A DNA stretch of 38,570 nt from assembly GCA_025060245.1 (NCBI GenBank), contig JANXCP010000010.1, positions 1-38,570 on the forward strand, in the 5' to 3' direction. This document shows, piece by piece, positions 1 to 31,998 of the stretch. The translations under genes were made by a program, and so were the position numbers. Position 1 is the stretch's first letter, and each line of letters opens with the position of its first letter. The notes under the pieces were generated by a model, which had not been told where the DNA came from, searched no databases, and saw only the letters and a program-made list of their open reading frames with translations. Source of the DNA: Thermoanaerobaculum sp. GTDB lineage: Bacteria > Acidobacteriota > Thermoanaerobaculia > Thermoanaerobaculales > Thermoanaerobaculaceae.

Positions 1-485
1 TTCTCTTCGGGCACCTTTTGGGTGGGCGGCGTGGGTGCCAATTCCTGCACCAGCGCTTGCGGGGTAGGAGGAGCAGCTGGACGGGAATCCCGCTCTCGCC
101 GTTCCAGCCAGAGGACCAGGGTCAGGGCAACCGCCACCAAAAGGAAGCCCACCAGCCAACGGGCCCATGGCCGCACCGGCGTTTCCCTTGCCGCGACCAC
201 AGGAAAGGGGTGGCTGGAAGCTTCCCACCTACGCCAAAGATGGTCAAAGGTCTCCAACCACGGCCCAGGTTCTTCTCCCACCAATTGGAGGTATTGGCGC
301 AGAAACATTCGCGAGAAAACCGCGGCCGGCAGGCGGTTGAACGCCCCGGCTTCTAAAGCTTGCAAGGTGAGGAGAGAAATCTTGGTCTTGGTGGAAATAA
401 ATTCCAGCGTGATCCCCCGAGCTTCTCGAGTATTTCGCAAGCGTTCACCAAACTCCTCGGGCGTGGCAGCGCGAGGATCACTCAT
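1..485 (-). CDS. RodZ-like helix-turn-helix membrane protein, partial (C-terminus beyond left edge)
   Basis: Reading leftwards from ATG at 485, the frame stays open to the window edge (161 codons). The first ~70 residues look like the HTH_25 domain of RodZ: GERLRNTREARGITLEFIS, then KTKISLLTLQALEAGAF, then an FSRMFLRQYLQLVG segment. A basic, Trp-rich stretch follows, then one membrane helix at about residues 103-125 (WLVGFLLVAVALTLVLWL) and a Pro-rich periplasmic part. RodZ links MreB to the cell-shape machinery, and related proteins with this layout occur widely. The gene lies 26 bases downstream of the HEAT-like gene on the same strand, so the two are probably co-transcribed. Without the C-terminal half I cannot tell true RodZ from another HTH_25 protein. 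Confidence 0.8.
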   Translation of the reverse strand, partial: MSDPRAATPEEFGERLRNTREARGITLEFISTKTKISLLTLQALEAGAFNRLPAAVFSRMFLRQYLQLVGEEPGPWLETFDHLWRRWEASSHPFPVVAARETPVRPWARWLVGFLLVAVALTLVLWLERRERDSRPAAPPTPQALVQELAPTPPTQKVPEE

Positions 486-511
486 AGGGGGAAGTTTACG
501 GTGATTTGTCG

Positions 512-1225
512 CTAGTGCAAGTACCGAGGCTCGCCTGGCTTACGCAGTTGCCGCACCCAAAGGGCTTGGCTGGCCAAACGGCGCACCGTTTGTGGATAGT
601 CAGCGTTCCTCTCCAAACCCTCCAGTTCCTCGTCGGTGAGGCTCACCAGCATCGCCATCGCCAGCGGCGGGGGCAGCGAGGGGTTGGCCAATAACGCCAT
701 ACGAACCGCGGGGACAGTTCCCCACCGGTTATGGCGCAGGACTTGCCCGAGCACCTTGGCTGAACTGCTTTCCGCCGCCAAACGCACGCAATGCGATTCT
801 TGCAGTTTGGGGTTGTCCAAAAGCGCACCCACCACACGGGGGTCTTCCTCTTGGAGCAGGCATAGGATCACCGAAGGGGGAGCCTTCCGCGCCAAGGAGA
901 CTTTTTCACCCACCGTCAGTGCCGGTAGACGTTCTAGCAGCTTATTTTGCGCTTGCTGGCGAACAGGCATGGCCGCCCGTGGGTCGGCCGCCACTGCCAA
1001 GAGATCATTCCAACCCAAAAGAGGTAAGGCACGAGCGGCGAAAGTCCGCGGGCATGCGGGGTGTCGCACCAAGGCCAAGACGATGCGCTGCCGGCTCAGC
1101 ACCCACGGGCTCGCCGCCAACGTCTCCACAAAAGCCGTGGAACAGAAAGGTGAACGGAGGGCGCGGACGATTTCCAGCTCATCCCGCAGCTCTCCGGAAT
1201 CCAGGGCCTCCAGCAGCTCCTTCAC
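512..1225 (-). CDS. HEAT-like repeat protein of unknown function
   Basis: 237 residues from a GTG start at 1225, with G-rich bases (GGGGTGGGG) about 9 bases upstream acting as a weak ribosome site. The frame is open further upstream, but that part is antisense to the solute-binding protein gene and looks non-coding. The protein is made of Leu/Ala-rich helical units of about 20-25 residues. Each has a turn such as DPRVVGALLDNPKL or VRMALLANPSL, typical of HEAT or leucine-rich-variant repeats that act as binding scaffolds. There is no signal peptide or membrane segment, so it should be cytoplasmic. It precedes the RodZ-like gene on the same strand, suggesting a joint but unknown role. Confidence 0.7.
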   Translation of the reverse strand: MKELLEALDSGELRDELEIVRALRSPFCSTAFVETLAASPWVLSRQRIVLALVRHPACPRTFAARALPLLGWNDLLAVAADPRAAMPVRQQAQNKLLERLPALTVGEKVSLARKAPPSVILCLLQEEDPRVVGALLDNPKLQESHCVRLAAESSSAKVLGQVLRHNRWGTVPAVRMALLANPSLPPPLAMAMLVSLTDEELEGLERNADYPQTVRRLASQALWVRQLRKPGEPRYLH

Positions 1226-1292
1226 GGCGTCGCCCCACCCCCATGGTACCGCCCCACGTTCAGCTTTGCTAGACTCTTTTGCGAGGCAAGGG

Positions 1293-2501
1293 ATGAGACG
1301 GCGATCAGCGAACAGAGGCGGGCTTTTTGGCCCAAGAGGAGTAAGGGCCGCTATGGGTTTGTTGCTTTTGGTCAGCTTGGCCTGTTCCGCGCCTCGTGAA
1401 CCAGTTTCCCTTTCCCTCTTGACCGCCTTGTCCGGTAGCGACGCCGCGGCACTCCAGGAACACCTCAACGCCATTGCTGCTACCGTGGAGCCAGTCACCG
1501 TCCGGCTCCACACAGTGCCCCTGCGGGCTTTGGAGGACACGGTTTTGGCCTTTAACCCGCATACGGCAGGAGGGCGCTGGGATCTCGCGGTGGTTCCTAC
1601 CTCATGGATCCACCGGCTCCACCAACGCCAGGCCATCCTGGAAGTACCCAACCATCACGTGCTGTCCCTGCAGCAGACGGTGATGCCGCTGGCCCTTCTC
1701 GCCACGTCGGTGCAAGGTCAAGTCATGGGTTACCCATTATCCGCGAACGTGGAAGCGCTGGTGTTGAACCCGCACCTTTTTCCCCACGTCCCCACGTCCC
1801 TGGCAGCGCTGACTCGCACCCCTCTGCCCCCGGGCGTCCTCCCCTTGGGTGTTAACTTACGGGACCCTGCCCAAGTCTTACCTCTCTTGGCCTCTTGGGA
1901 AACCTTGCCCCCCGATGCCACACCGCCGGCGCTGGCCCAGCTGCTCCGACGGTTTTTGCTGGCGCTGCAGCCCGCCACCGCCCAAAGGGACCTGTTCAAC
2001 CTCTGGATGACTTCCACTGCACCGGCGGTGCAGGCTCAGCTGTTTGCTGAGGGGCGTTTGGCTGCACTGGTGAGCGGCCCGCAAGTCCTGGGACTTTTAG
2101 AAACGCTGCAAAAACCCTTGGTGGTGACGCCGTTGCCTGCGGTTTGCGAGGGTTGTTCCCCACCCAAACCCTGGGCGCGGGTCACCGCTGTGGTGGTCAG
2201 CAACGTGTGTCCCTACCCGGATCTGGCGCAGCAATTAGCCCTTGAGCTCACAACCCTGGAGCGGAATGTACAGCTCAATTTGGCCATGAACCTTTTGCCC
2301 GTGGCCGGGGGTGCGGACGAAAGCCAAATCTTGGCCAAAAGCCCAGCCTTATTTGGGTTCCAACGGGCTCTGGCGTCAGCACGGGTTTTAAAGGCAGCAG
2401 AACTGAGTGAAACCTGGAATGCCTGGGAAAAAGCCTTAGCCCTCGTCATGCAGGAGCCACAACAAGAGCGTGCCGGTTCCGGACAACGAGGTGAGTTGTG
2501 A
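1293..2501 (+). CDS. Periplasmic extracellular solute-binding protein (maltose-type fold)
   Basis: 402 residues. I chose ATG 1293 because GAGG lies 6 bases upstream and the resulting N-terminus is Arg-rich, followed by the hydrophobic stretch GLLLLVSLAC, as an export signal needs. An alternative ATG at 1353 also has AGGAG/AAGGG upstream but would leave an uncharged signal. Cys31 could be lipidated, although the lipobox is imperfect. The body resembles family 1/8 ABC binding proteins: a WDLAVVPTSW segment, GYPLSANVEALVLNP, and a late AEGRLAALVSGPQVL region like the NGPW segment of maltose-binding proteins. No permease or ATPase gene adjoins. Instead its end overlaps the HD-GYP receptor gene by 4 bases, suggesting it senses a ligand for that protein. 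Confidence 0.78.
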   Translation: MRRRSANRGGLFGPRGVRAAMGLLLLVSLACSAPREPVSLSLLTALSGSDAAALQEHLNAIAATVEPVTVRLHTVPLRALEDTVLAFNPHTAGGRWDLAVVPTSWIHRLHQRQAILEVPNHHVLSLQQTVMPLALLATSVQGQVMGYPLSANVEALVLNPHLFPHVPTSLAALTRTPLPPGVLPLGVNLRDPAQVLPLLASWETLPPDATPPALAQLLRRFLLALQPATAQRDLFNLWMTSTAPAVQAQLFAEGRLAALVSGPQVLGLLETLQKPLVVTPLPAVCEGCSPPKPWARVTAVVVSNVCPYPDLAQQLALELTTLERNVQLNLAMNLLPVAGGADESQILAKSPALFGFQRALASARVLKAAELSETWNAWEKALALVMQEPQQERAGSGQRGEL

Positions 2502-4150
2502 GAACCTTTCGCTCCTCTATTCTCTACCAGCTCACCTTTTCCCACGGCCTGGTGGCGTTGATCCTCTCTCTGGCGCTGGGTGTTGTGGCCACCTCCATCG
2601 TCTGGGTACGCACCCGAGCCGTCGAAGGACAGCTACTGGATAGCTCGTTCGCCCTCATTTCAGACCAGCTCACCGCTCAGGTCCGGCGCCTGGAAGAAAC
2701 CAGGGATGGGGTGGCGCGGGTGCTGGCGTCCCGCCCGCTGGCCTATACCACGAACGATTTGATCTGGCTCCATGAAATCGTCGGTTACACGGACGTTGAC
2801 CGCATTGAGGTCTTCTCGGACTTGCGCAAGCTCATTGAGGCGTACGCGCTCCTGCCAGGGGGAAGCCCCGAGGCGGCGACGCAGTGGCTTCCCAGTAATC
2901 CCCAGGTGGCTGCCCTTCTGCAGGCGGGCCAACCGGTGACTTGGGTGCAGCTCCGGGAAAAGGGCCTTACCACCCTTAAAGCAGGGGTGCAGGTGTTCAA
3001 GGGCGGGTCGGTCCGTTGGTACGTGGTGGTCACCCTGGCCCTCCAGCCCTCCTTGCTCACCTCCGTCCTGCCCACCGGCATGACAGGTGTCCTCTTCGTT
3101 GGGGATCGACCCATCCACCAGGGCCAGCAGGCCGGCGGCGGGCGGATGGCCGCTGACTTTCTCGCGTTGGCCAGGCGGGAGACGGTGATGCGCTTGGACG
3201 ACGACACTTCAATCGGGCTTGAGCTCACCGCACCACCCCACCTGATCCACGAGGCCTTAGCCCCAATGCTCCAGGCCGGTTTCCTCTTGGTTTTGGTATC
3301 TCAACTGTTGGCCCTGCTGCTCGGCCATCACTTCGCCCGAAGGTTGTTGAGCCCTTTGCACGATCTCTTGGAAGGGACCGCGGCCATGGCCCGTGGGCAT
3401 TTGACCGTCCGTTTGCCCGTGCGACGGCAGGATGAGCTAGGGGAGCTGACCCGCGAGTTCAACCGGATGGCCGACGAGATTCGCACCACCTATTTGGGGG
3501 TGATCGCCACGCTGGCGGAAGTGGTGGAAGCGAAGTCCCACTACACGCGGGAGCACATTGAACGTGTGGAACGCCTCACCATGGCCACCGCGCAGGTCCT
3601 GGAGGAACGGGGATGGGCCAGGTGGTCGTCTCATCAAAAATTTATCCTTTCGGTGGCGGCCATCCTCCACGATGTGGGCAAGATCCAAATTGGCAACGAC
3701 ATTCTCAACAAGCCCGGACCTCTTTCGGGGAGCGAGCGCGAGGAGATCCTCTCTCACCCGGAAGTGGGGGCAACCATCGTGGAGCGCATGGGCAAGCTGG
3801 AGCGAGCAGCGGAGATCATCCGCGCCTGTCATGAACACTACGACGGGAGCGGATACCCACGGGGGCTCAAGGGCGAGGAAATACCTTTGGAAGCACGGAT
3901 CATCTTGGCTGTGGATGCGTTTGACGCCATGACCCAGGCGCGTCCCTATTCCAAGGCTCGGGCTTTGGAGGATGCCATCGCTGAACTACGGGCGGAGGCT
4001 GGCCGGCAATTTGACCCCGTGGTGGTGGAAGCCCTGATTGAGGTGGTACGGCGAGGGCAGCAGGGTGAAGCGGTGGGTACCAGAGACTCTTCAGGGTTCT
4101 ACCGCTCCCTGGCCGGCCACTCCGGTGAGGTCGCCGCCACCCCCTCCTAG
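2498..4150 (+). CDS. Membrane HAMP/HD-GYP protein, probable cyclic-di-GMP phosphodiesterase
   Basis: 550 residues from GTG 2498, with GAGGT 5 bases upstream inside the preceding gene. Order of parts: cytoplasmic tail, membrane helix at ~18-37, periplasmic sensor at ~38-255, second helix at ~257-278, HAMP at ~279-332, HD-GYP from ~337. Metal-site motifs are present: E-A-K-S-H-Y-T-R-E-H near 344-353, HD at 391-392 followed by VGK, HP at 420-421, HE at 445-446, DGSGYP at 449-454, and D473. The family hydrolyses cyclic-di-GMP. The first His of the usual HHE triplet is Cys444 here. Coupling with a binding-protein gene suggests that ligand state in the periplasm controls second-messenger breakdown. 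It converges with the mutase gene. Confidence 0.9.
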   Translation: MRTFRSSILYQLTFSHGLVALILSLALGVVATSIVWVRTRAVEGQLLDSSFALISDQLTAQVRRLEETRDGVARVLASRPLAYTTNDLIWLHEIVGYTDVDRIEVFSDLRKLIEAYALLPGGSPEAATQWLPSNPQVAALLQAGQPVTWVQLREKGLTTLKAGVQVFKGGSVRWYVVVTLALQPSLLTSVLPTGMTGVLFVGDRPIHQGQQAGGGRMAADFLALARRETVMRLDDDTSIGLELTAPPHLIHEALAPMLQAGFLLVLVSQLLALLLGHHFARRLLSPLHDLLEGTAAMARGHLTVRLPVRRQDELGELTREFNRMADEIRTTYLGVIATLAEVVEAKSHYTREHIERVERLTMATAQVLEERGWARWSSHQKFILSVAAILHDVGKIQIGNDILNKPGPLSGSEREEILSHPEVGATIVERMGKLERAAEIIRACHEHYDGSGYPRGLKGEEIPLEARIILAVDAFDAMTQARPYSKARALEDAIAELRAEAGRQFDPVVVEALIEVVRRGQQGEAVGTRDSSGFYRSLAGHSGEVAATPS

Positions 4151-5505
4151 CTGTCCCGTCCCACGCGGCGGATGACCTCCACCACCCCCTCCTGTGCTTC
4201 CGCCAACTTTTTTGGGTCCCTTGCCTCCATCACCAGGCGTAGGAGGGGCTCGGTGTTGGAGGGGCGCACGTTGAACCACCAGTCGTCAAACTCCACCGTG
4301 ATCCCGTCCAGAAAATCTACCTTCCCTGAAGCAAAGGTCTGCGCCAGGGCGGCAATCACCTCGTCCTTGTTGGCCACATGGAAGTTCACCTCGCCCGTGC
4401 GGGCGTAGCGGCGAAAGGGGGCGACCAAAGCGGACAAGGGTTGCTGCTCGCGCCGGAGGACGTTGAGCACCTCAATCATGGTAATGATGGCCGAATCGGC
4501 GTAAAAGTTTTCCCGGTAATAGAAGTGGCCTGCCAGCTCGCCGCCAAAGGGACTGCTCAGTTGGCGCATGGTAGCCTTCATGAAGGAATGACCCACGCGC
4601 TCGCGCACCGGGACACCCCCCGCTGCCAGGATGGCCTCCCGCGTAGCCCAAGAGGAACGCACGTCGTAAACGATTTTGGCGCCGGGGAAACGCTCCAAAA
4701 TAGGTCCCGCCAACAGCGCTGTGACGAGGTCTGCCCCCACCACAACGCCCTGCTCATCCACCATAATGGCGCGGTCGGCGTCCCCGTCAAAGGCCACACC
4801 GAAATGGCAACCCTGTTCAACCACAGCCTGTTTCAGGAAGCGCAGATTTTCCTCCTTCAACGGGTTGGCTTCGTGGTTGGGGAATGAGCCGTCCAGGCCA
4901 AAAAACAGCGGCACCAAATCCAAATTAAGCTTTTGAAAAATTGGTTCGTAAAGGGTGGCCATGCCGTTGGCCACATCCACAGCCACCTTCAGCCGGGGTG
5001 CGGAAAGACGGAGAAAGCCCAACACGTGAGTTTCGTAGGCTGGCCACACTTCCCGGGTCTGGTAGGCCCCGCGAGGACTCGGAGGGGCGGGTTGCCCACG
5101 ACGCACCAAAAGCTCCAGCTTGCCAATTCCGGTTTCAGAACTTACGGGGATGGCGTGCCTGCGAGAAAACTTGAAGCCGTTGTACTGGGCTGGGTTATGG
5201 GAAGCGGTCACCTGCGCCCCGGCGGAGGCGCCCAAAAAGCACACGGCAAAGTAGTTCATGGGCGTGGTGGCCAGGCCTATGTCCCAAACTTCCAGGCCAG
5301 CGGTGCGCAGGCCTTGCTGGAACGCATCGGCCAACGCCGGGGACGTGGCCCGCATATCTCGGCTCACCACCACTGCCTGCACCGTCGCCAAATCTTCGGG
5401 CTCAAGGATTTGCGGAAAAAAATAGCCGATAGCGTAAGCTGACCTTTCGTCCAGCTCCTCCGGCACAACCCCGCGAACATCGTACGCCTTGAAAATGCCT
5501 CCCAT
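4147..5505 (-). CDS. Phosphomannomutase/phosphoglucomutase (alpha-D-phosphohexomutase)
   Basis: 452 residues from ATG 5505, which has GGAGG 8 bases upstream; upstream in-frame codons are ignored for that reason. The four expected sites are visible: the phosphoserine loop VTASHNP with Ser102, the Mg2+ loop FDGDADR, the sugar-recognition loop GGELAGH, and the phosphate-binding RPSNTEPLLR near the C-terminus. Length and order fit AlgC/ManB enzymes, which interconvert hexose 1- and 6-phosphates for surface polysaccharide and glycan precursors in the cytoplasm. Substrate choice (mannose versus glucose) cannot be read from the sequence. The stop codon is shared head-on with the HD-GYP gene within the palindrome CTAG at 4147-4150. 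Confidence 0.93.
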   Translation of the reverse strand: MGGIFKAYDVRGVVPEELDERSAYAIGYFFPQILEPEDLATVQAVVVSRDMRATSPALADAFQQGLRTAGLEVWDIGLATTPMNYFAVCFLGASAGAQVTASHNPAQYNGFKFSRRHAIPVSSETGIGKLELLVRRGQPAPPSPRGAYQTREVWPAYETHVLGFLRLSAPRLKVAVDVANGMATLYEPIFQKLNLDLVPLFFGLDGSFPNHEANPLKEENLRFLKQAVVEQGCHFGVAFDGDADRAIMVDEQGVVVGADLVTALLAGPILERFPGAKIVYDVRSSWATREAILAAGGVPVRERVGHSFMKATMRQLSSPFGGELAGHFYYRENFYADSAIITMIEVLNVLRREQQPLSALVAPFRRYARTGEVNFHVANKDEVIAALAQTFASGKVDFLDGITVEFDDWWFNVRPSNTEPLLRLVMEARDPKKLAEAQEGVVEVIRRVGRDS

Positions 5506-5566
5506 TCCCCGATCCTCCCGGGATGAGTGTAGCCGGCGAGACTCCGCTGGCCAAGCCACCCACCAG

Positions 5567-5595
5567 GCGACATCGTGTTACAGAAAACTTATAAT
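5567..5595 (+). promoter_or_regulatory. Strong sigma-70-type promoter giving a leaderless transcript
   Basis: A perfect TATAAT lies at 5590-5595, with GCGACA (4 of 6 matches to TTGACA) at 5567-5572 and an ideal 17-base spacer. The GTG at 5602 is 6 bases beyond the -10 box, which is where transcription should start. The mRNA would therefore begin at or near its own start codon. Confidence 0.75.
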
Positions 5596-5601
5596 CACCC
5601 C

Positions 5602-6471
5602 GTGGTTGACGCCGCAAGCGGCACACGTTGGGCGTACCTCAATGGGTCTTTCGTACCCTTTGCCACCGCTTCTCTACCCCTGGAGGACCGCGGGTTGGAA
5701 TTTTCCGAATCCCTTTACGAGGTGGTGGCGGTGATCAGAGGCCAGCCTTTTCGCTTGGCCGACCACGTGGCGCGCATGGCGTGGGGTGCCGAACAGCTAG
5801 GCATGCCTGATGCGGTCCCTTCCCTCGCCACCTGGCAGGGTATCGTTACGGAACTGTGGTCCCGGGAACCCCACCCCACTGCCATCCTCTACGCCCAGCT
5901 CACCGGTGGTACTGCACCCCGCGAGCACCTCCCCGGCGAGACCCCGAAGCCAAATTTTTTCGCCTACCTTCGTTTTTTTTCCTTTCCCAGCCCTCAGATG
6001 TGCAGCCAGGGCGTTGCCGCCATTACCCTTCCCGACAACCGCTGGTACCGGCGCGATATCAAGACCACCATGTTGCTCCCCGCGGTGTTGGCCAAGCGCC
6101 AGGCGCGAAGGCAGCAGGCGGCAGAGGCCATTTTCCTTGGCCAAGAGGGCTTTGTTCATGAGGGTGCCTCCAGCAACGTGTGCGTGGTTCGGGGGGGAGT
6201 GGTGGCAAGTCCTCCGCCTTGCGAACGACTCCTGGAAGGTGTGACCTTGAAGGTCGTTGAGGAGTTGTGCCAAGAAATAGGAGTGCCTTTTCAACGTCGT
6301 TGGGTCACGCTGTCGGATTTGAAAAATGCCGACGAGGTGTTCATCACTTCCACCACCACCGCCCTCATGCCCATCGTGCGACTGGATGGACAACCTGTCC
6401 GGGGTGGCCAGCCTGGGCCCATCAGCTTACGTTTGGCCTACCACTTCCAGCGAATTTTCTTTGGGGAGTGA
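5602..6471 (+). CDS. Class IV aminotransferase, D-amino-acid transaminase type
   Basis: 289 residues when started at GTG 5602. A GTG nine codons upstream at 5575 would extend the frame, but it lies inside the promoter and would not be transcribed from it. The fold-type IV PLP enzyme signature is clear: WAYLNGSFVP at the N-terminus, LEDRGLEFSESLYEVV, and RRDIKTTMLLP with the Schiff-base Lys154. HEGASSNVCVV follows, then ITSTTTALMPIV at the phosphate cup. The DIKT…LLP…LAK pattern is closer to D-alanine transaminase (Dat) than to branched-chain transaminase. That would supply D-glutamate or D-alanine for peptidoglycan. Branched-chain or aminodeoxychorismate activity cannot be excluded. Confidence 0.88.
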   Translation: MVDAASGTRWAYLNGSFVPFATASLPLEDRGLEFSESLYEVVAVIRGQPFRLADHVARMAWGAEQLGMPDAVPSLATWQGIVTELWSREPHPTAILYAQLTGGTAPREHLPGETPKPNFFAYLRFFSFPSPQMCSQGVAAITLPDNRWYRRDIKTTMLLPAVLAKRQARRQQAAEAIFLGQEGFVHEGASSNVCVVRGGVVASPPPCERLLEGVTLKVVEELCQEIGVPFQRRWVTLSDLKNADEVFITSTTTALMPIVRLDGQPVRGGQPGPISLRLAYHFQRIFFGE

Positions 6472-6494
6472 CCGGTACCGAAGGCCCAACGGCC

Positions 6495-7253
6495 CTAGGC
6501 CCCCACCCCTCCATCAACCCGGATCACGGCGCCGGTGATGTAGGAGGCCTGGGGGGAAAGGAGAAACCGTACCACCGAAGCCACTTCTTCCGGCAAGCCA
6601 AAACGACCCAAGGGGATGGACTCCTCGGCCTTGCGTCGGCGGTGCGCGGGTAAAGACGCAGTTAGATCGGTGGAGATCCAGCCAGGGACCACGGCGTTGA
6701 CCGTGATTCCGTAGCGGCCCACTTCGCGGGCAAGCGCCTTGGTAAAAGCGATGAGGCCTCCCTTCGCCGCGGCGTAGTTGGTCTGTCCGTGTTGCCCCAC
6801 CACCCCAGACAGGGAAGAAATGTTCACCACACGCCCCTGCCCAGCGTGGAGCATGGAGCGCAGGATTGCCCGTGTGAGACGGTACGCGCCGGTGAGGTTC
6901 GTTTCCAGCACCTGACCCCACCGCGCCTCGTCCATCAGCAGCAAGGTTCCATCCGCCAACATGGCGGCGTTGTTCACCAGCCCGTAAATTGGGGTGGAAA
7001 GCCCTTCCACAAAGGCGTTGACCTGCTCAGGCCGACGCAGATCGCACTGGACTCCACGAGCCACGCCCCCCAATGCCCGGGCCTGGGTTTCCACTTCCTC
7101 CGCCGCTTGCCGGTGGCGGAGGTAGACGAAGTCCACCGCATAGCCGGCGCGCACCAGCTCCAGCACAATGGCGCGACCGATCCCGCGGGAACCCCCGGAA
7201 ACCACAACCCGCCTCAGCTGGCCGGATTCCCCCGGTAGCGAGGGTTCAAACAC
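6495..7253 (-). CDS. Short-chain dehydrogenase/reductase, FabG-like
   Basis: 252 residues from GTG 7253. It is a classical SDR: a GGSRGIG nucleotide motif near residue 20, NNAA near residue 94, a catalytic Ser in NISSLSG, and a YAAAK Tyr/Lys pair. A PGWISTDLT segment follows, then a C-terminal RVDGG typical of FabG. The usual reaction is NADPH-dependent 3-oxoacyl-ACP reduction in fatty-acid synthesis, but SDR substrates are hard to predict and no other fab gene is present. The start has no Shine-Dalgarno sequence and sits 8 bases after a promoter -10 box, so the mRNA is probably leaderless. It converges with the aminotransferase gene across a 23-base gap. Confidence 0.85.
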   Translation of the reverse strand: MFEPSLPGESGQLRRVVVSGGSRGIGRAIVLELVRAGYAVDFVYLRHRQAAEEVETQARALGGVARGVQCDLRRPEQVNAFVEGLSTPIYGLVNNAAMLADGTLLLMDEARWGQVLETNLTGAYRLTRAILRSMLHAGQGRVVNISSLSGVVGQHGQTNYAAAKGGLIAFTKALAREVGRYGITVNAVVPGWISTDLTASLPAHRRRKAEESIPLGRFGLPEEVASVVRFLLSPQASYITGAVIRVDGGVGA

Positions 7254-7261
7254 GGAGGGGT

Positions 7262-7290
7262 ATGCTAACGCGCTCTGTTGTTGGACTCAA
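7262..7290 (-). promoter_or_regulatory. Promoter in front of the SDR gene, leaderless type
   Basis: On the minus strand TTGAGT (7290-7285) is followed after exactly 17 bases by TAGCAT (7267-7262), with GTG 8 bases further at 7253. Nothing resembling a ribosome site lies between. The promoter fills the 43-base gap after the glycosyltransferase gene and would uncouple the SDR gene from it. Confidence 0.6.
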
Positions 7291-7296
7291 GCCGCC

Positions 7297-8064
7297 CTAG
7301 GCCTCTGTTTTTGAGCCGCTTTCTTCCCCTGGGGGCTCCACGGGAAGTTGATCTGCCAGACGCCGAAAGGGTGCGGGCCCGGGGTCAAAGCGAGCGACCC
7401 CTTCGTCCACCTTAAAGGGGACGGCGGAAAAGACGATGTGCACCGTGTCCGCCAGCGGCCGGAAATGGGACTTTTGCCCGTTATAGATCACCCGAATCGG
7501 CACGTGAGCGAACGAAACCCGCATTCGCCCAGCTCGCACCAAGATTTCCGTATCCACCGAATAACGCCGCCCAATGAGGTGCATGCGCCGCAGAACGCTG
7601 CTCCGCACGAGCCTAAAGCCACATTGGGAGTCCTCCAGCGGGAACCCTGTCATTAGGGTGAGAGCCTTCGTCCCAATGTAGTTGGTCCAAAAACGCTTTT
7701 TCGGGATCGCCTGGGGCTCGTAGAGGCGGTTTCCTACCACCAGGTCATGCTCTCCAGCCAGGGCCAAAAACTTCGGAATGTCGTCAGGGTCGTGTTGTCC
7801 GTCACCGTCTAGCATCAACACATGGCTCCAAGGGCCCGCTAACACCCACGGAAGTCCCTGTCGCACTGCACTTCCCTTCCCCTGGTTCTGGTTCAGCCGA
7901 AGCACATGCGCGCCAGCCCTCCGAGCGACGGCGGCCGTGGCGTCGGTTGAGCCATCGTCCACCACCAAGACCGTGGGGACGTGGCGAAGGACCCCTCGCA
8001 CCACCGCGCCAATGGTGGTCTCGCAACAAAATGCGGGAATTAACGCCGCCACCGCGATCGTCAC
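7297..8064 (-). CDS. Family 2 glycosyltransferase (polyprenyl-phosphate sugar transferase type)
   Basis: 255 residues from GTG 8064. N-terminal ALIPAF and VVDDGSTDAT, then LDGDGQHDPDDI, give the GT-A nucleotide-sugar fold with its metal-binding Asp motif. GNRL and SQCGFRLVR follow, the usual order in DPM1/dolichyl-phosphate-mannose-synthase-like enzymes and polyprenyl-phosphate glucosyltransferases. No membrane helix is obvious, so the product probably acts at the inner face of the membrane. The start overlaps the RlmL stop in a GTGA quartet, implying translational coupling. A TAGACT box 6 bases before the start could also give an independent leaderless transcript. The sugar and acceptor are unknown. 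Confidence 0.87.
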   Translation of the reverse strand: MTIAVAALIPAFCCETTIGAVVRGVLRHVPTVLVVDDGSTDATAAVARRAGAHVLRLNQNQGKGSAVRQGLPWVLAGPWSHVLMLDGDGQHDPDDIPKFLALAGEHDLVVGNRLYEPQAIPKKRFWTNYIGTKALTLMTGFPLEDSQCGFRLVRSSVLRRMHLIGRRYSVDTEILVRAGRMRVSFAHVPIRVIYNGQKSHFRPLADTVHIVFSAVPFKVDEGVARFDPGPAPFRRLADQLPVEPPGEESGSKTEA

Positions 8065-9233
8065 AGGGCAAGTCTATCAGAGGGCCTGGTAGCACGGCTT
8101 CGGCGAAAACTCCCCTCCACCACGGGATAACAACAGAACTGGCAGGGCAACGGACCGTTGAAAAGGGAAAACTTCCGCTGGGGCCGGAGACCCAGTTGGC
8201 GCGCCAGCCGCGGATTGCCCAAGAGCAGCCAAACCTCCGAACCCACGGCGGCATGCTTAAAGGTGTCCCCCAACTGACGGTAAAAATGCGAAAGCTGGGC
8301 CTCCTCCCCCACCCTTAAGCCGTATGGGGGGTTGCTGATCACCAGAGTTCCCGGCGCCAGAGGCGGCATCCGCCGCACATCCTGTTGGGAAAAACGGACT
8401 ACCTGTTGCACTCCTGCGGCCTTTGCCGCCCGCTGGGCCAAGGCGACAGCTTTGCTTGATACGTCAGAACCGGCAATGGGCTCAGACGGGGTGACGCGGC
8501 GGGCTCGTGCAGCTTGGCGAAGCTGGTCAAGCCACACTCGTTCCACGAAGGGCCACCGCTCAAAGGCAAAAGACCTCCGCCAACCGGGAGGAGTGCCAGA
8601 AGCCAGCAGCGCCGCCTCAATCACGATGGTGCCCGAGCCGCACATGGGATCCACGAAAGGTTTCGCCCCGTCATAACCGGCTAGGAGCAGAAGGGCTGCC
8701 GCCAGGTTTTCCGAGAGGGGAGCGGCCGCTTGCTTTTGGCGGTACCCACGGTGACTGAGCGGCTCGCCCGAGCTGTCAAGGAAAAGGCTGCAGCTATTTG
8801 GTTGTAAGTGCACCACCACGCGTAGGTCGGGGTCTTGCAAGTTCACCGAAGGGCGCTGTCCCCTTTTTTCTCGCAGACGGTCCACCAGGGCATCCTTTAC
8901 CACCAGGGCAGCGAAGTGGGTGTTCACGAAGGCCTCATGCCGGCCATTCACCTGCACTGCCACCGTGGCATCCCTCCGTAGGTACTCCTCCCAGGGCACC
9001 GAGCTAGCCAGCTGGTACAGATCCCCTCGGCTCAGGCAAGGACCCCCGCCCACCCGTACCAGAACTCGCGAGGCCGTACGCAACCAAAAATTGAGGTGCA
9101 CCAGCTGTGGAACAGAGGCGCAAAACTCCACCGCTCCCCCAACCGGTGTACCCACAACGCCGTAGGCCTCCAGCTCGCCAGCCAGGACGCCCTCAAGCCC
9201 GCGGGAACAGGTGGCCACACATGGCAGATCCAT
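8061..9233 (-). CDS. rlmL: THUMP-domain RNA N2-guanine methyltransferase, RlmL/Trm14 family
   Basis: 390 residues from ATG 9233. The frame also allows ATG 9251, six codons upstream, but the homologous core begins at CVATCSRGLEGVLAGEL, so the shorter form fits better. Residues ~1-160 form the THUMP RNA-binding region (LYQLASSVPWEEYL, VQVNGRHEAFVNTHFAALVVKDALVD). The rest is a Rossmann methyltransferase with DPMCGSGTIVIEAALLA for S-adenosylmethionine and the catalytic NPPYGLRVG near residue 310. The family makes m2G in 23S rRNA (RlmL, N-terminal half) or in tRNA (Trm14/TrmN), and the exact target is undecided. Neither start has a Shine-Dalgarno sequence. A CACAAT box 8 bases before 9233 could serve as the -10 element. 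Confidence 0.88.
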   Translation of the reverse strand: MDLPCVATCSRGLEGVLAGELEAYGVVGTPVGGAVEFCASVPQLVHLNFWLRTASRVLVRVGGGPCLSRGDLYQLASSVPWEEYLRRDATVAVQVNGRHEAFVNTHFAALVVKDALVDRLREKRGQRPSVNLQDPDLRVVVHLQPNSCSLFLDSSGEPLSHRGYRQKQAAAPLSENLAAALLLLAGYDGAKPFVDPMCGSGTIVIEAALLASGTPPGWRRSFAFERWPFVERVWLDQLRQAARARRVTPSEPIAGSDVSSKAVALAQRAAKAAGVQQVVRFSQQDVRRMPPLAPGTLVISNPPYGLRVGEEAQLSHFYRQLGDTFKHAAVGSEVWLLLGNPRLARQLGLRPQRKFSLFNGPLPCQFCCYPVVEGSFRRSRATRPSDRLAL

Positions 9234-9309
9234 ACGGTCGGATTGTGGCATGACAGGCCATCGTCAGGTTTGGCGAGAGGATGTTGCGATTCCATCTTGA
9301 TATGACACA

Positions 9310-9345
9310 CTTGTGGCAGTTCATTCACGTTCCTTTTACCACAAG
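9310..9345 (+). promoter_or_regulatory. Inverted repeat in the hemA upstream region
   Basis: CTTGTGG at 9310-9316 and CCACAAG at 9339-9345 are perfect 7-base inverted arms separated by 22 bases, about 50 bases before the hemA start. ACGTTCC also occurs twice, at 9327-9333 and 9359-9365, exactly 32 bases apart (three helical turns). I see no convincing sigma-70 promoter in this 145-base gap. These repeats are the only visible candidate control elements for the heme operon. Confidence 0.35.
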
Positions 9346-9396
9346 CTCTTTACACGTGACGTTCCCCGACCCATCATGCCAGCGGGAGGAGGACCG

Positions 9397-10656
9397 ATGG
9401 AAACCCTCTTCGCCCTGGGCACGAACCACCGCCTAGCAACGCTGGAGGAGGTAACCCGAGCCAGAATTCCTGAGGCGCTGCTTCCCCAAGCGTTGCACCG
9501 TATCGCCGAACGCCTCCGTGGGCGGGAGCTGGTGTACTTGGCCACCTGCCACAGGACCGAGTTTTACCTGGTCCACGATGGCGGCCTCTGCCCTGGGCGC
9601 TTGACTCAGGCCTTGCGGACCTCTTTGGCCGAATTGACCGACGGGCGAGGAACCCTTCCCGAGCCATCCCGCTGCCTCATGCTGCAGGCAGCCGACGCTG
9701 CCCAGCACCTGTTTCGGGTCAGCGCCGCATTGGATTCGCTCATGTTGGGGGAAAGCCAAATTCTAGGGCAGGTCAAGGAAGCCTACCGGCAGTCGGTGCA
9801 AGCAGGGCTGGTGGGTCCAAGATTGCACACGGTCTTTGCCCAGGCCTTCCGTGCGGCGAAACGAGTGCGGAGCGAGACCAAACTTTCCCAAGGACCCACC
9901 TCTCTGGTCTCCCTCGCTGCCCGCGTCTTGCGCCAACGTTTTGCAGAAGACCCCAGGCCTGTGGCCATCCTCGGCGCTGGCACCATGGCAGAAGCGGCGG
10001 CCGGGTTGGTACGGAAGCTGGCTCCTCAAAGGCCCGTTTGGCTGTTCAACCGCTCCCGAGAACGCGGGCATGCCCTCGCCCAACGGGTTGGGGCGCAGTT
10101 CGCGGATTTGGCTGCCTTTCCCCCGGCAGAAGGTCCTTTGTTTTCGGTCATCATCCTTGCCTTGGCCGTCAATGCCCCTTTCATACGCGAAGATCTGGCG
10201 GCCAAGCTGTCCCCCGTGCTGCTGTTAGATTTGGGACTTCCAGCCAACGTCAGTGCCCGTTGTGCCCACCTCCCCGGTGTGGAGCTGGTGGACCAGGTGA
10301 GCCTGCGGGAGGAATCAGAGGCCAATCGCCAAGCACGGTCAGCGGAGGTGGCCAAGGCGGAGGCCATCGTGGCCCAGCAGCTTGCCGAGCTTTCCTTGGA
10401 GTTGCTGGATCATCAGCTCTCCCCCATCGCCCGTACCCTTCGCGAAGCCTTTTTCCACTCGGCTCGCTGGGAGTTGCGCCAGGCATTTTCCAACGGGCAT
10501 GGGACCCTGCCCGCTGAGTTCTTGGATCAATTGGCGGATCGCTTGGCGCAAAAACTGGTACGTACCCCCCTGCGGGGTTTGCGCCAAGTGGCCTTCGCCC
10601 ACTCCCCCAAGACGCTGCAGACGTTCCTTGAGGCCTTGGACCGTGAGTACTCCTAA
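9397..10656 (+). CDS. hemA: Glutamyl-tRNA reductase
   Basis: 419 residues from ATG 9397, preceded by a strong GGAGGAGG with ~4 bases of spacing; the frame extends upstream to GTG 9313 but the family begins at LFALGTNHR. First enzyme of the C5 heme pathway: NADPH reduces glutamyl-tRNA to glutamate-1-semialdehyde. The nucleophilic Cys51 lies in LATCHRTEFY, followed by a substrate region with DSLMLGESQILGQVKEAY. A GAGTMAEAA nucleotide-binding turn comes next, then a long helical dimerisation tail. It heads the eight-gene heme operon and overlaps hemC by 14 bases. In many bacteria this step is the flux-controlling point, so signals in the gap upstream are of interest. Confidence 0.97.
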   Translation: METLFALGTNHRLATLEEVTRARIPEALLPQALHRIAERLRGRELVYLATCHRTEFYLVHDGGLCPGRLTQALRTSLAELTDGRGTLPEPSRCLMLQAADAAQHLFRVSAALDSLMLGESQILGQVKEAYRQSVQAGLVGPRLHTVFAQAFRAAKRVRSETKLSQGPTSLVSLAARVLRQRFAEDPRPVAILGAGTMAEAAAGLVRKLAPQRPVWLFNRSRERGHALAQRVGAQFADLAAFPPAEGPLFSVIILALAVNAPFIREDLAAKLSPVLLLDLGLPANVSARCAHLPGVELVDQVSLREESEANRQARSAEVAKAEAIVAQQLAELSLELLDHQLSPIARTLREAFFHSARWELRQAFSNGHGTLPAEFLDQLADRLAQKLVRTPLRGLRQVAFAHSPKTLQTFLEALDREYS

Positions 10657-11566
10657 GGCCTTGCGCATCGGCACCCGGGGCTCTGAGTTGGCCCTGTGGC
10701 AAGCGCAACGGGTAGCAGCGCTGCTGTCCCAGCGCTGCCAGCTGACCTGCCAGCTGGTGGTCGTGCACACCAGTGGCGACCGGGACCGCAGCCGTGCGCT
10801 GCACGAGCTTCCCGGCAGCGGCTTTTTCACCAAGGAACTGCAGGAGGCGTTACTGGAGGGGCAGGTGGATGCGGTGGTGCACTCTTTGAAAGACCTGCCC
10901 ACCCAAGAACCGGAGGGCCTCCTGGTGGGTGCGGTGTGCCTTCGGGAAGATCCTTCCGAGCTGCTCTTGGCGCGGCCCGAGGCCCTCGGGGAGGGTGCAC
11001 TGGGCCTGCGCGCCGGTGCGGTGGTCGGCACATCTTCCCTGCGCCGGCGAGCCCAGGTGCTGGCCCTGCAGCCGGACCTGCAGGTCAGACCACTCCGCGG
11101 GAACGTACCGACCCGCTTGCGCAAGCTGCGGGAAGGAGCGTACGACGCGGTGCTGTTAGCTTACGCCGGTGTGCACCGCTTGGGTCTGGATCTTTCCGGA
11201 CTGGCGGTGCGGAAGCTCCCGCCGGAGGTGCTGCTCCCTGCTCCCGGGCAAGGAGCCCTGGCGGTGGAAGTGCGCCAAGGGGACCGGGAGGCGCAACAGG
11301 CAATAGCCCAGATTCATGAACCCCTATTGGCTGAGGAAGTGGCGGCAGAGCGCCAGCTGCTGGTGGGCCTAGGCGGCGGTTGCCACCTTCCTTTGGGGGC
11401 CTACTGCCAAAGGCAGAACGGTTCCTTCCTCTTAAAGGCAGCCTACGGCATCTTGGACTCCTCCCTTGGCCTAGTGGAGCTCAAGAGGGCCAGGGCGCTG
11501 GCTCCCACGCCGCGGGAGGCAGCGTCCCAGGTGCTGCAGGCCTTTGTTGCGGGAGGAAGTGGGTGA
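10643..11566 (+). CDS. hemC: Porphobilinogen deaminase (hydroxymethylbilane synthase)
   Basis: 307 residues from GTG 10643, inside the end of hemA. It joins four porphobilinogens into hydroxymethylbilane. N-terminal RIGTRGSELALWQA, the catalytic Asp84 in SLKDLPT, the Arg-rich SSLRRRAQ and RGNVPTRLRKL substrate segments, and Cys247 in LGGGCHLPLGA are all present. Cys247 would anchor the dipyrromethane cofactor. Length matches the family (about 310). The start overlaps hemA by 14 bases and the stop overlaps hemD by 4, so translation should be coupled through the operon. Confidence 0.97.
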   Translation: MSTPKALRIGTRGSELALWQAQRVAALLSQRCQLTCQLVVVHTSGDRDRSRALHELPGSGFFTKELQEALLEGQVDAVVHSLKDLPTQEPEGLLVGAVCLREDPSELLLARPEALGEGALGLRAGAVVGTSSLRRRAQVLALQPDLQVRPLRGNVPTRLRKLREGAYDAVLLAYAGVHRLGLDLSGLAVRKLPPEVLLPAPGQGALAVEVRQGDREAQQAIAQIHEPLLAEEVAAERQLLVGLGGGCHLPLGAYCQRQNGSFLLKAAYGILDSSLGLVELKRARALAPTPREAASQVLQAFVAGGSG

Positions 11567-12285
11567 AGCCTTGGGTTGTCATCACCCGCGACGGCAGTGA
11601 TGTGCCGCCCTTATCGGAGCGACTATTGGCCCGGATAGAGCTGCTGCCGTACCCCGTATTGCAGTTGCGGCCGTTTTACGACCCCCGTGGTTGGGCGGAG
11701 CTCCTGGAGCACCAGGAGCACCTGGGCCTGATCCTGTTTACCAGCCGCCACGCCCCCGAACCCTTTCGCCAGCAGGCGCAGCATCACGGGCGGCTGGAAG
11801 CGTTGGCCTCCCTCCCCGTGGCTGCGGTTGGCGAGACCACTGCTGCTGCCTGTGTCAAGGCCGGGTTCCAGGTCATGCTTGTCGGCTCTGCCGGTGGGGT
11901 TGCCCTGGCGGAAATTATCGCCGCCCAGTTTCATTCTCCCACTGGGGTTGCCTTCCCCTGCGGGCGTGAACACCGCGAAGAAACGGTGGTGCACCTCCGG
12001 CAGGCAGGGTTCCAGGTACTGCCCTTGGTGGTTTACGCCATGGAACCCACACCGCTGGCGCAGTTACCCCCTCTTCCCGCATCTTCCCCGACAGCCGTGG
12101 TGGTGACCTCTCCTCGTACCGCACGCCTGTACTGGCAGGCCACGGCGGGAAGGTTTGCCCAGGTTACGCATTTCGCCTGGGGCTCCACCACCGCTGAGGA
12201 ATTGCGCCGGTTAGGATTGGAACCGCGCGTCCTGCTAAAACCCACAGCAGCAAGTTTGGAGGAGGCACTATGGCAGACCTTATAA
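11563..12285 (+). CDS. hemD: Uroporphyrinogen-III synthase
   Basis: 240 residues from GTG 11563, in a GTGA overlap with the hemC stop and with GGAGG 6 bases upstream. HemD closes hydroxymethylbilane with inversion of ring D to give uroporphyrinogen III. Sequence conservation in this family is low. Support comes from the two-lobed pattern (N-terminal WVVITRDG, ILFTSRHAPEPFR, VAAVGETTAAA; later CGREHREETVVHLRQAGF, VVTSPRTARLYW) and from its place between hemC and hemB. Its end overlaps hemB by 16 bases. Confidence 0.93.
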   Translation: MKPWVVITRDGSDVPPLSERLLARIELLPYPVLQLRPFYDPRGWAELLEHQEHLGLILFTSRHAPEPFRQQAQHHGRLEALASLPVAAVGETTAAACVKAGFQVMLVGSAGGVALAEIIAAQFHSPTGVAFPCGREHREETVVHLRQAGFQVLPLVVYAMEPTPLAQLPPLPASSPTAVVVTSPRTARLYWQATAGRFAQVTHFAWGSTTAEELRRLGLEPRVLLKPTAASLEEALWQTL

Positions 12286-13256
12286 ACCGTCCGCGTCGTT
12301 TACGCTTCCACCCTGGCCTGCGGGATTTGGTGGCGGAGGCCCGCCTCGATCCCCGGCTTTTCGTTATGCCCCATTTCGTCCTCCGAGACCCTCATCGGGT
12401 AGAGGACATCAACGCCATGCCGGGCATCCAGCGACAAGGCATTGAACCCTTGCTAAGGACGGTTGAGGCCGATCTCAAGCTGGGCATACGCTCGGTGCTG
12501 CTGTTTGGCGTACCCGGGGACGATGAGCCGAAATTCCCCGACGGGCGGGGGGCTTACGACGAGCGGGCGTTGATCCCCCAGGCGGTGCGGGCGTTGAAAC
12601 AGCAGTTTGGGCAAGACCTCGTGGTCATCACCGACGTGTGCCTCTGCGCCTACACCGACCACGGTCACTGCGGGGTCATTGAGCACGGAAAAGTGGTTAA
12701 CGACCCTTCTTTGGAGCACTTGGCGCGGATGGCGCTGGCCCACGCCCGTGCAGGTGCCGACGTGGTGGCTCCATCGGACATGATGGACGGACGGGTGGCG
12801 GCCATCCGAGAAGCGTTGGACGAGGAAGGGTACGTGGACACCCCCATCATGAGTTACTCGGTGAAGTACGCCTCGGCTTATTACGGGCCCTTCCGCGAAG
12901 CGGCGCACTCGGCACCGCAGTTTGGCGACCGCAAGTCCTACCAAATGGACGCCCGCAACCGTCGGGAGGCCGTGTTGGAGGCAGAGCTGGATGTGGCGGA
13001 GGGGGCGGATATCCTCATGGTCAAACCTGGCCTGGCTTATTTGGACGTGGTGCGGGAGCTCAAGGAACACTTCGTGCAGCCAGTGGCGGTGTACAACGTC
13101 TCGGGCGAGTACTCCATGGTGAAGGCGGCGGCGCAAAAGGGTTGGATTGACGAGCGCCTGGTGGTCCTGGAAAACCTCCACGCCTTCCGCCGGGCCGGGG
13201 CGGACATCATCATCACCTACCACGCCCGTGACGTCTTGGCTAACCGGTGGCTGTGA
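12270..13256 (+). CDS. hemB: Delta-aminolevulinic acid dehydratase (porphobilinogen synthase)
   Basis: 328 residues from ATG 12270, preceded by GGAGG inside hemD. It condenses two 5-aminolevulinates to porphobilinogen. The Schiff-base lysines are Lys199 (SVKYAS) and Lys252 (MVKPG). The CLCAYTDHGHCG segment supplies the Cys124/126/134 triad typical of zinc-dependent HemB rather than the Asp-rich magnesium-only form. Other family markers are PSDMMDGR and AYNVSGE-like VYNVSGEYSM. Length is standard. It overlaps hemD by 16 bases and precedes hemL by 7. Confidence 0.97.
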   Translation: MADLINRPRRLRFHPGLRDLVAEARLDPRLFVMPHFVLRDPHRVEDINAMPGIQRQGIEPLLRTVEADLKLGIRSVLLFGVPGDDEPKFPDGRGAYDERALIPQAVRALKQQFGQDLVVITDVCLCAYTDHGHCGVIEHGKVVNDPSLEHLARMALAHARAGADVVAPSDMMDGRVAAIREALDEEGYVDTPIMSYSVKYASAYYGPFREAAHSAPQFGDRKSYQMDARNRREAVLEAELDVAEGADILMVKPGLAYLDVVRELKEHFVQPVAVYNVSGEYSMVKAAAQKGWIDERLVVLENLHAFRRAGADIIITYHARDVLANRWL

Positions 13257-13263
13257 GGTACCC

Positions 13264-14547
13264 ATGCAGAGGGCAACATCGGAGGCGTTATACCAACGGG
13301 CCTGCCAGCTCCTTCCGGCAGGGGTCAACTCGCCGGTGAGGGCCTTTCGCGCTGTCGGTGGAACCCCGGTTTTTTACCGTTCGGCAAAGGGCAGCCGGTT
13401 TACCGATGTGGATGGCAACACCTTTGTGGACTACGTCATGTCCTGGGGTCCCCTCATCCTCGGCCACGCCCATCCAGAGGTAGTGGAAGCGGTGACCCGT
13501 GCCGCCGGCGATGGACTTTCCTTTGGCGCACCTTGTCCTGCCGAGGTGGCCCTGGCGGAGAAGGTGGTGGCCTGGTATCCCGGCTGTGAGCTGGTTCGTT
13601 TCGTTTCCTCGGGCACCGAGGCGGTGATGGCGACCATACGCCTGGCCCGGGGCTACACGGGCAAGCCGCGCATCCTCAAGTTTGAGGGGTGCTATCACGG
13701 CCACTGCGATGCCCTTCTGGTGAAGGCCGGCTCGGGCTTGGCCACCTTCGGGACCCCCTCCTCTGCCGGTGTACCGGGCCCCCTTGCCGAGCTCACGGTG
13801 GTCGTGCCCCTGGATGACGAGGCCTCCCTGGAGCAAGCCTTCCTAAAGCACGGCGAAGAGTTAGCCGCAGCCATCATTGAGCCCATCCCCGCCAATGCTG
13901 GCCTGTTGCTCCAGCGCCGTTCATTTCTTGAAAAACTTGCCAGCCTGTGTCGGAAGCACCAGGTTTTGTTGATCTTCGATGAGGTGATTTCCGGTTTTCG
14001 TGTGGCCAAGGGTGGTGCCGCGCAGCTTTTCGGTATCACGCCAGACCTCGTCACCTTTGGCAAGGTGATCGGCGGCGGAATGCCCGTGGGGGCGTTCGGC
14101 GGTCGGCGCGAGGTGATGGAACAGGTGGCACCGCTCGGTCCGGTCTATCAGGCGGGGACGCTGTCCGGCAACCCTGTGGCCATGGCCGCGGGATTAGCTA
14201 CCCTGCAGGTGTTGGAGCGGGAACGGGCCTGGGAACGCCTGGAGGTGGTAGGGGCCCAATGGGAACAGGCACTACGAGATGTCCTGCAGGGGCGAGGACA
14301 AGTGGTCCGGGTGGGTTCCATCTTTTGGTTGTACCTGGACCCTTCCCCGGCCCCTCGCCGGTTTGACGCCCTTGTCCCCCAGGCGGCGGAACGGTACAGA
14401 GGCCTTCACCGGGCCCTGCTGGAGCGCGGTGTGTACCTGGCCCCTTCGGCCTTTGAGGTGGGCTTTTTGTCCACCGCCCACAGCGCCGAGGATTTGTCCC
14501 TCACCGTGGAGGCCCTCGCGGAAGCCCTGCGGGAGGTGTTGTCTTGA
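13264..14547 (+). CDS. hemL: Glutamate-1-semialdehyde 2,1-aminomutase
   Basis: 427 residues from ATG 13264 with GAGGT 4 bases before it; the longer open frame starting in hemB is ignored. It is a PLP enzyme that turns glutamate-1-semialdehyde into 5-aminolevulinate, the product that feeds hemB. Seen: LPAGVNSPVRAF at the N-terminus, WGPLILGHAHPEV, SSGTEAVMATIRLAR, FEGCYHGH, IFDEVISGFR, and the PLP-binding Lys267 in VTFGKVIGGGMPVGA. These are the family hallmarks in order and at normal length. The stop overlaps the TTG start of hemE in a TTGA quartet. Confidence 0.97.
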   Translation: MQRATSEALYQRACQLLPAGVNSPVRAFRAVGGTPVFYRSAKGSRFTDVDGNTFVDYVMSWGPLILGHAHPEVVEAVTRAAGDGLSFGAPCPAEVALAEKVVAWYPGCELVRFVSSGTEAVMATIRLARGYTGKPRILKFEGCYHGHCDALLVKAGSGLATFGTPSSAGVPGPLAELTVVVPLDDEASLEQAFLKHGEELAAAIIEPIPANAGLLLQRRSFLEKLASLCRKHQVLLIFDEVISGFRVAKGGAAQLFGITPDLVTFGKVIGGGMPVGAFGGRREVMEQVAPLGPVYQAGTLSGNPVAMAAGLATLQVLERERAWERLEVVGAQWEQALRDVLQGRGQVVRVGSIFWLYLDPSPAPRRFDALVPQAAERYRGLHRALLERGVYLAPSAFEVGFLSTAHSAEDLSLTVEALAEALREVLS

Positions 14548-25990: not shown

Positions 25991-26050
25991 CCAACCTCCG
26001 CGTCTTTACCTCATTTGCTTGGACTCGTTTTCTTTCCATGCGGAGGTGGT

Positions 26051-31700: not shown

Positions 31701-31996
31701 GGGATGAGTTTAGGCGTCGAGGTTGGATTCGGGACGAGGCCAGCGCCGACGAGGCCATTATCCACGGTGCCGTGAAGCGCCTGCGGCCCAAGTTCATGAC
31801 GGTCATGGCGGCTTTCTCTGGCCTGCTGCCCATCATGTGGTCCACCTCTGCCGGAGCGGACGTCATGAAACGTATTGCCGCCCCCATGATCGGCGGTTTG
31901 GCCACCTCGTTCCTCCTGGAACTCCTGGTTTACCCAGCCGTGTATAAGCTGTGGAAGATGCGCACGGAGCTGGTCCACCCCGTCAGCGGGAGGTAA
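28736..31996 (+). CDS. cusA: Heavy-metal RND efflux pump, CusA type (probably Cu+/Ag+)
   Basis: 1086 residues from ATG 28736. The N-terminal PLLILLGVG helix and [13 protein letters not shown] are typical HME-RND. TM4 has [19 protein letters not shown] with Asp404 for proton relay. Methionines that line the metal path in CusA are matched: Met576 in REFMPPL, Met587 in YMPTT, Met701 in WTMPIK and Met709 in RIDMLSTG. Met-rich sites favour Cu+/Ag+ over Zn2+/Co2+ (CzcA). Twelve membrane helices and two large periplasmic loops are expected from the hydrophobic pattern. It is the inner-membrane pump of the tripartite complex and is followed 2 bases later by the copper ATPase gene. Confidence 0.95.
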
Positions 31997-31998
31997 CG

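Follow-up and report, generated by a model that had tools for sequence, protein, structure and literature searches.

We analysed a 38,570-nucleotide stretch of DNA from a Thermoanaerobaculum sp. of the Acidobacteriota (GCA_025060245.1, contig JANXCP010000010.1), hereafter called the window, in which the gene for a solute-binding lipoprotein (SBP) runs directly into the gene for a membrane receptor with an HD-GYP domain. By analogy with characterised partnerships of binding proteins and receptors, we propose that these two proteins probably constitute one sensory system, in which the SBP and its ligand would gate signalling through HD-GYP. The two genes are linked, occur or are missing together and stand apart from any transporter; the predicted folds are those of a maltose-type binding protein and a tandem sensor domain, and the receptor retains six of the eight metal ligands of the HD-GYP protein PmGH.

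Layout and conservation of the gene pair

The MalE/CUT1-type SBP (402 aa; positions 1293..2501, + strand), assigned from Pfam, PDB and fold matches together with a lipobox, is the predicted ligand-sensing subunit. Its gene overlaps that of the receptor (550 aa; 2498..4150, +) by the four bases GTGA (2498..2501, +), which according to the open reading frame (ORF) coordinates contain both the SBP stop and the receptor GTG start. The receptor proceeds from a long N-terminal helix through a periplasmic sensor domain (residues 38-255; 2609..3262, +) and a HAMP linker (residues 279-329; 3332..3484, +; Pfam HAMP 1.6e-16) to the HD-GYP domain (HD_5 match at residues 375-509; 3620..4024, +; Pfam HD_5 1.3e-35), and its two transmembrane helices were assigned from sequence and model, without a dedicated predictor. 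HAMP and HD_5 are the strong receptor domains in 9/9 aligned orthologues, which carry no kinase domain. An earlier note made from this DNA alone had described the 4-base overlap and the HAMP and HD-GYP layout, and both its coordinates and its description are borne out.

A search for the SBP in 59 genomes (the window's own and relatives; E≤0.001) returned matches in 15, of which 11 were strong (E 4.5e-39 or better) and four weak and partial. All 11 strong orthologues belong to a single Acidobacteriota family, Thermoanaerobaculaceae. Adjacency of the two protein families, set beforehand as a check on the pairing, is conserved throughout: the receptor lies directly downstream in 11/11 close SBP orthologues, with a 4-base overlap in nine pairs (the window's included), a 3-base gap in one and a 62-base gap in one. 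A profile of the sensor domain matched 12 (E≤1e-3) when run against 148 genomes of the class, namely the 11 SBP-bearing genomes and one with a marginal partial match (9e-4), and in a 396-genome sample of the phylum it matched five, all Thermoanaerobaculaceae. Scanning the genome contigs with a single SBP sequence gave no match, and an alignment-based scan gave eight loci, all on contigs already given by the genome search. Two loci whose receptor genes run off the contig (L022 and L023) were excluded from the receptor alignment; the inspection of the first histidine of the HD-GYP motif, described below, covers all 11 genomes.

The surroundings of the pair are also shared. Since the window is the entire contig (C11) of a 2.35-Mb genome, the upstream view is limited to 1.3 kb, and in relatives with up to 8 kb of upstream sequence HEAT-like and RodZ-like genes precede the pair. 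A convergent phosphomannomutase (PGM) gene lies downstream in the window and in all eight relatives whose contig extends there. In G006 and G012 the contig ends within the receptor gene, and the 3' part of the receptor adjoins PGM on other contigs (L083, L084, L085). Three contigs of the G012 bin, C94, C152 and C312 (L083, L022 and L084), carry the PGM region and sensor domain in two versions that differ slightly, and this bin probably represents two strains in one assembly.

Both genes of the pair are missing from 6/17 family genomes. The locus was found in four of these six (G007, G009, G010 and G013), where PGM adjoins the HEAT-like gene across a short spacer (empty sites at L077 3660-3790, L078 5740-5830, L079 6960-7110 and L080 4600-4720). 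In these genomes PGM shares its direction with the HEAT-like and RodZ-like genes and reads into them, whereas in pair-bearing genomes the pair stands between PGM and these genes, in the opposite direction. The four pairless genomes form two well-supported lineages in a PGM tree from which rows of ≤250 residues were dropped. One of these lineages, G010 and G013, bears the same genus label (g5) as pair-bearing genomes, and at least one joint loss of the pair is therefore the simplest reading. With regard to the other pairless lineage, the pair may have been gained later; the backbone of the PGM tree is unresolved, and the choice between gain and loss rests partly on genus labels.

A binding protein that appears to have left transport

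The SBP matches Pfam SBP_bac_8 (E 2.2e-14), and among characterised PDB sequences it is closest to the Thermus maltotriose-binding protein 2gh9 (4.2e-11), which is also the top fold match to the SBP model (E 5.7e-19). Both fold and sequence place it with the SBPs of ATP-binding cassette (ABC) transporters of the CUT1, MalE type. Its N-terminal lipobox ends at Cys31, which is invariant in 11/11 aligned orthologues, and a VPxxW stretch (VPHDW in many) is common to the SBP family and the Thermus protein. The PYF stretch of E. coli MalE is not retained as such, with a Tyr at this place only in L026 and L029; in MalE, the W and Y of GPW/PYF-type motifs stack on the sugar. By ancestry, a carbohydrate is the likely ligand of the SBP, and maltose itself is not indicated.

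The seven window neighbour genes scanned (3 to 9251) matched no ABC permease or ATPase family, and no PF00528 (BPD_transp_1) permease lay on any pair-bearing contig in 11/11 genomes, in agreement with the earlier note, which had seen no transporter near the pair. A search with the MalG/UgpE-like permease of the window genome as query (E≤1e-5) matched MalG-type permeases in 7/11 pair-bearing genomes and none in G002 and G005 (both 96% complete), G003 (82%) and G012 (84%). In the window genome, one pair of permeases is of the glycerol-phosphate/glucose/maltose type; it lies on contig C164 and is adjoined by its own SBP (L002), 25% identical to the one studied here. Permease matches lie near distant family homologues of the SBP (25-32% identity) in 4/4 loci with both features mapped (G000:C164, G008:C87, G011:C31 and G015:C56; G009, G010, G013 and G047 stand outside this count). 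Because the pair contigs are without a permease, while the mapped distant homologues sit near permeases, the SBP appears to derive from a transport protein and then to have left transport. Relatives of the SBP are thus not always located beside ABC permeases, the close ones being unlinked in 11/11 genomes.

Weak matches to the SBP profile elsewhere in the phylum (5/396 genomes) were considered as relatives of the pair and rejected, being taken as transport proteins from neighbours judged by eye. These neighbours include permease-like and amylase-like ORFs around a MalE-like ORF in L088, and an ABC-ATPase-like ORF with amylase-like ORFs in L087 and L089; the assessment excludes G359, and L086 (G279) was not settled from its ORFs.

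Sensor and output domains of the receptor

The sensor domain matched no Pfam family and, among PDB sequences, gave nothing beyond one chance hit (E 1.6). A model of the region (mb582f2868053), with blocks of the predicted local distance difference test (pLDDT) mostly at 75-94, comprises a long helix and, after it, two alpha/beta modules, and was matched by VIA-align 2 to KinD (4jgq; Z 14.6, 3.2 Å, 188 residues), to the periplasmic domain of DvhD (9rc2; Z 12.5, 4.2 Å, 186 residues) and to LuxQ (2hje; Z 12.4, 4.1 Å, 184 residues). The domain is accordingly predicted to have a tandem CACHE (dCache) fold. The same list of matches holds 2hj9 and 1zhh, in which LuxQ is complexed with the SBP LuxP; given the spread of about 2 Z among the matches, they establish a shared fold and no special kinship to LuxQ.

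The HD-GYP domain has as its best PDB sequence match V-cGAP3 (9.1e-38), a phosphodiesterase specific for 3'3'-cyclic GMP-AMP (cGAMP), and alignment to V-cGAP3, PA4781 and PmGH places its HD at residues 391-392 and its GYP at 452-454. Using the metal-ligand list in the part of PMC4159591 drawn on here, we mapped receptor residues through the alignment to PmGH, whose H189, H221, D222, H250, H277 and D305 correspond to receptor H353, H391, D392, H420, H445 and D473. These residues, which account for six of PmGH's eight metal ligands, do not vary among the 9/9 full-length orthologues, and neither do G452-Y453-P454. The place of PmGH E185 is occupied by an aromatic residue (Tyr349 in the window), which according to the same part of PMC4159591 is the mark of the Y/F HD-GYP subfamily; of the seven metal ligands common to HD-GYP subfamilies, the receptor loses one. 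The window genome encodes 11 GGDEF and 2 PilZ matches, and signalling by cyclic di-GMP (c-di-GMP) is therefore present in the organism.

Proposed mechanism and alternatives

The steps that we infer, from ligand binding and docking to the direction of the effect and any enzymatic activity, would be as follows. In the periplasm, the lipoprotein SBP would bind its putative ligand, with a carbohydrate as the most likely candidate, and would then dock on the receptor's tandem CACHE domain, in the manner of LuxP with LuxQ and NspS with MbaA. Whether the SBP is docked or not could then be relayed along the second transmembrane helix and by way of HAMP to HD-GYP, where the handling of c-di-GMP would change, be it hydrolysis at a metal site that has been altered or binding only. 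Gating by the SBP and its ligand is likely because the sensor fold is predicted to be that of LuxQ, which itself partners an SBP, LuxP.

Several observations weigh against this proposal. The pair is found in only one family, at one syntenic site, and is inherited vertically, and such operon linkage is weaker evidence than independent re-pairings would be. Both predicted models are moderate (mean pLDDT 70.9 and 66.6), and the SBP diverges faster than the receptor (25-50% vs 49-69% identity to the window proteins). The MalE-like GPW is GPQ/GPR in 3/3 SBPs of the window's genus and retained in 8/8 others, and from these residues the MalE-like pocket looks eroded in that genus. Furthermore, direct ligand binding is common among dCache domains, which may need no SBP. 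This last property, together with the MalE-like fold of the SBP and the sugar-type permease pair on C164, would also suit an arrangement in which the SBP, as an orphan subunit, serves a sugar ABC importer encoded elsewhere and the receptor detects a ligand of its own, their adjacency being historical. However, the C164 permeases have their own SBP, 4/11 pair-bearing genomes are without a MalG-type match, and the SBP and receptor genes are present or absent together, and we judge a merely historical adjacency very improbable.

A final point of this kind concerns the output. The first His of the HHExxDGxGYP motif, at the place of the PmGH metal ligand His276, is missing in 11/11 genomes, with Cys in the window's genus (Cys444 in the window; codon 3827..3829, +) and Ala elsewhere in the family, and in the part of PMC4159591 used here the PmGH mutation H276A essentially abolished hydrolysis. 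Because the receptor is without a His whose Ala mutant inactivates PmGH, breakdown of c-di-GMP by the receptor is unproven from its sequence; the output may not be hydrolysis, which may have been lost, weakened or upheld by another metal arrangement. A survey of HD_5 domains in five genomes (33 matches, 30 of them read) found the first His absent from 3/3 pair-linked domains, whereas 24/27 non-pair domains keep HH and three deviate in other ways. The substitution thus characterises this receptor and not the HD-GYPs of the lineage generally, and for the five genomes surveyed the notion that HD-GYP proteins commonly carry Cys or Ala here was rejected. Two same-genome HD_5 domains (L121 and L123) have GERW or NERW replacing HHE and are degenerate in a different way from the pair receptor.

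The universal replacement of this His by Ala or Cys, the retention of both His in most of the non-pair domains read and the effect of H276A on PmGH also favour a switch that works from the inside out, in which a non-hydrolysing HD-GYP would bind c-di-GMP and the occupied receptor would capture, release or reshape the SBP. DvhD of Desulfovibrio vulgaris offers a model for this, as its HD-GYP binds c-di-GMP without hydrolysis and its dCache domain has been modelled with a periplasmic protease (PMC13090378, in the part consulted). Like the receptor, DvhD combines a dCache periplasmic domain, which is among the fold matches given above, with a cytoplasmic HD-GYP, and it communicates with, and controls, a periplasmic protein. 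According to the same part of that source, however, the partner of DvhD is the protease DvhG, a PAS domain stands where the receptor has HAMP, and DvhD has lost HD and both His of HH, whereas the receptor has lost only the first His, has an aromatic at the E185 place and keeps its six metal ligands invariant. In the window's genus, the Cys could yet serve as a metal ligand, and the SBP is by ancestry a ligand sensor and no effector. We therefore regard such an inside-out switch as unlikely, though as the main alternative. We also hold it to be quite unlikely that intracellular c-di-GMP, acting via the metal-site-altered, non-hydrolysing HD-GYP and the dCache domain, gates the capture of an extracellular ligand by the lipoprotein SBP.

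The altered set of metal ligands and the best match to V-cGAP3 could instead point to another cyclic dinucleotide, such as 3'3'-cGAMP, on which HD-GYP would act under the control of an SBP that gates from outside. This substrate seems distinctly improbable to us, since the V-cGAP3 match reflects general HD-GYP similarity and the 11 GGDEF matches point to c-di-GMP, with no search for cGAMP synthases having been made.

Relation to known systems

The logic of SBP-gated signalling to a c-di-GMP receptor, which we favour, is known from other bacteria. The earlier note knew of no named system that pairs such proteins, a statement that does not stand, as NspS-MbaA consists of an SBP and a receptor for c-di-GMP turnover encoded by overlapping genes and is, by analogy, a tested precedent for the logic of the pair. 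When it carries norspermidine, NspS associates with MbaA and promotes synthesis, and MbaA free of NspS acts as a phosphodiesterase; the overlap between the nspS and mbaA genes measures 3 bp in S. meliloti and 16 bp in V. cholerae (PMC8967002, PMC9993111; in the parts of both papers used here). As far as these parts describe it, NspS-MbaA shares with the present pair a former transporter SBP without a transporter, whose gene lies upstream of, and overlaps, that of a c-di-GMP receptor that sits in the inner membrane and has a single periplasmic domain. In contrast, NspS is PotD-like and polyamine-binding, whereas the SBP here is MalE-like (SBP_bac_8); MbaA has a bifunctional GGDEF-EAL output, whereas the receptor has HD-GYP alone; and NspS-MbaA has been surveyed in Proteobacteria (V. 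cholerae, Sinorhizobium meliloti), whereas the present pair belongs to Acidobacteriota. Because of its SBP_bac_8/MalE type and HD-GYP output, we do not class the pair as NspS-MbaA proper.

The likeness in logic to SBP-dependent sensor kinases such as LuxPQ, also drawn in the earlier note, is supported, as is the standing of the pair as a conserved unit without a transporter. As in LuxP-LuxQ of Vibrio, an SBP is partnered with a periplasmic domain that is predicted to be a tandem PDC/CACHE; unlike in that system, the output is HD-GYP and no histidine kinase is present. LuxQ is a histidine kinase, and LuxP is an SBP of the ribose-binding-protein type. SBP-type ligand sensing is also wired to c-di-GMP turnover in CdgH and RmcA, which are, so far as the source parts used describe them, single fused chains with a different SBP family, unlike the separate lipoprotein found here. 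Among domains of the periplasmic binding protein (PBP) clan, only SBP_bac_3, which is fused in RmcA, is reported in the part of PMC8846402 drawn on as having been studied in c-di-GMP networks. In the open-licence literature searched, at the level of titles and the starts of abstracts, no HD-GYP receptor with a separate SBP partner was named, and the combination of a MalE-type SBP with HD-GYP was not found described.

The pair would extend the NspS-MbaA/LuxPQ principle to an HD-GYP output and a MalE-type sensor. To our knowledge, most HD-GYP receptors have no identified input signal, and a conserved, transporter-free SBP partner provides a handle, as the signal of the receptor would follow once the SBP ligand is found. 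The natural Cys or Ala at the catalytic His offers a test case for distinguishing an HD-GYP enzyme from a c-di-GMP-binding switch.

Neighbouring genes

On the other side of the SBP gene, the window encodes a protein that is HEAT-like by eye (512-1273, - strand; 253 aa) and has no Pfam or NCBIfam match. Its gene is kept beside the RodZ-like helix-turn-helix (HTH) gene and is weakly similar to a further nearby gene, giving two match places per locus. The neighbouring PGM and glycosyltransferase genes make a link to exopolysaccharide possible; this suggestion comes from synteny only and is not used here. Further along, positions 9313-18360 hold a long co-directional run that, by eye, we take to be for haem biosynthesis, in the order hemA, hemC, hemD, hemB, hemL, hemE, hemN, hemG. 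Positions 26015-34341 resemble, again by eye, a heavy-metal efflux cluster comprising an outer-membrane factor, a membrane-fusion protein with repeated YHCPMHP-type metal motifs, a CusA/CzcA-like RND pump and a copper-type P-type ATPase with a YHS-like start.

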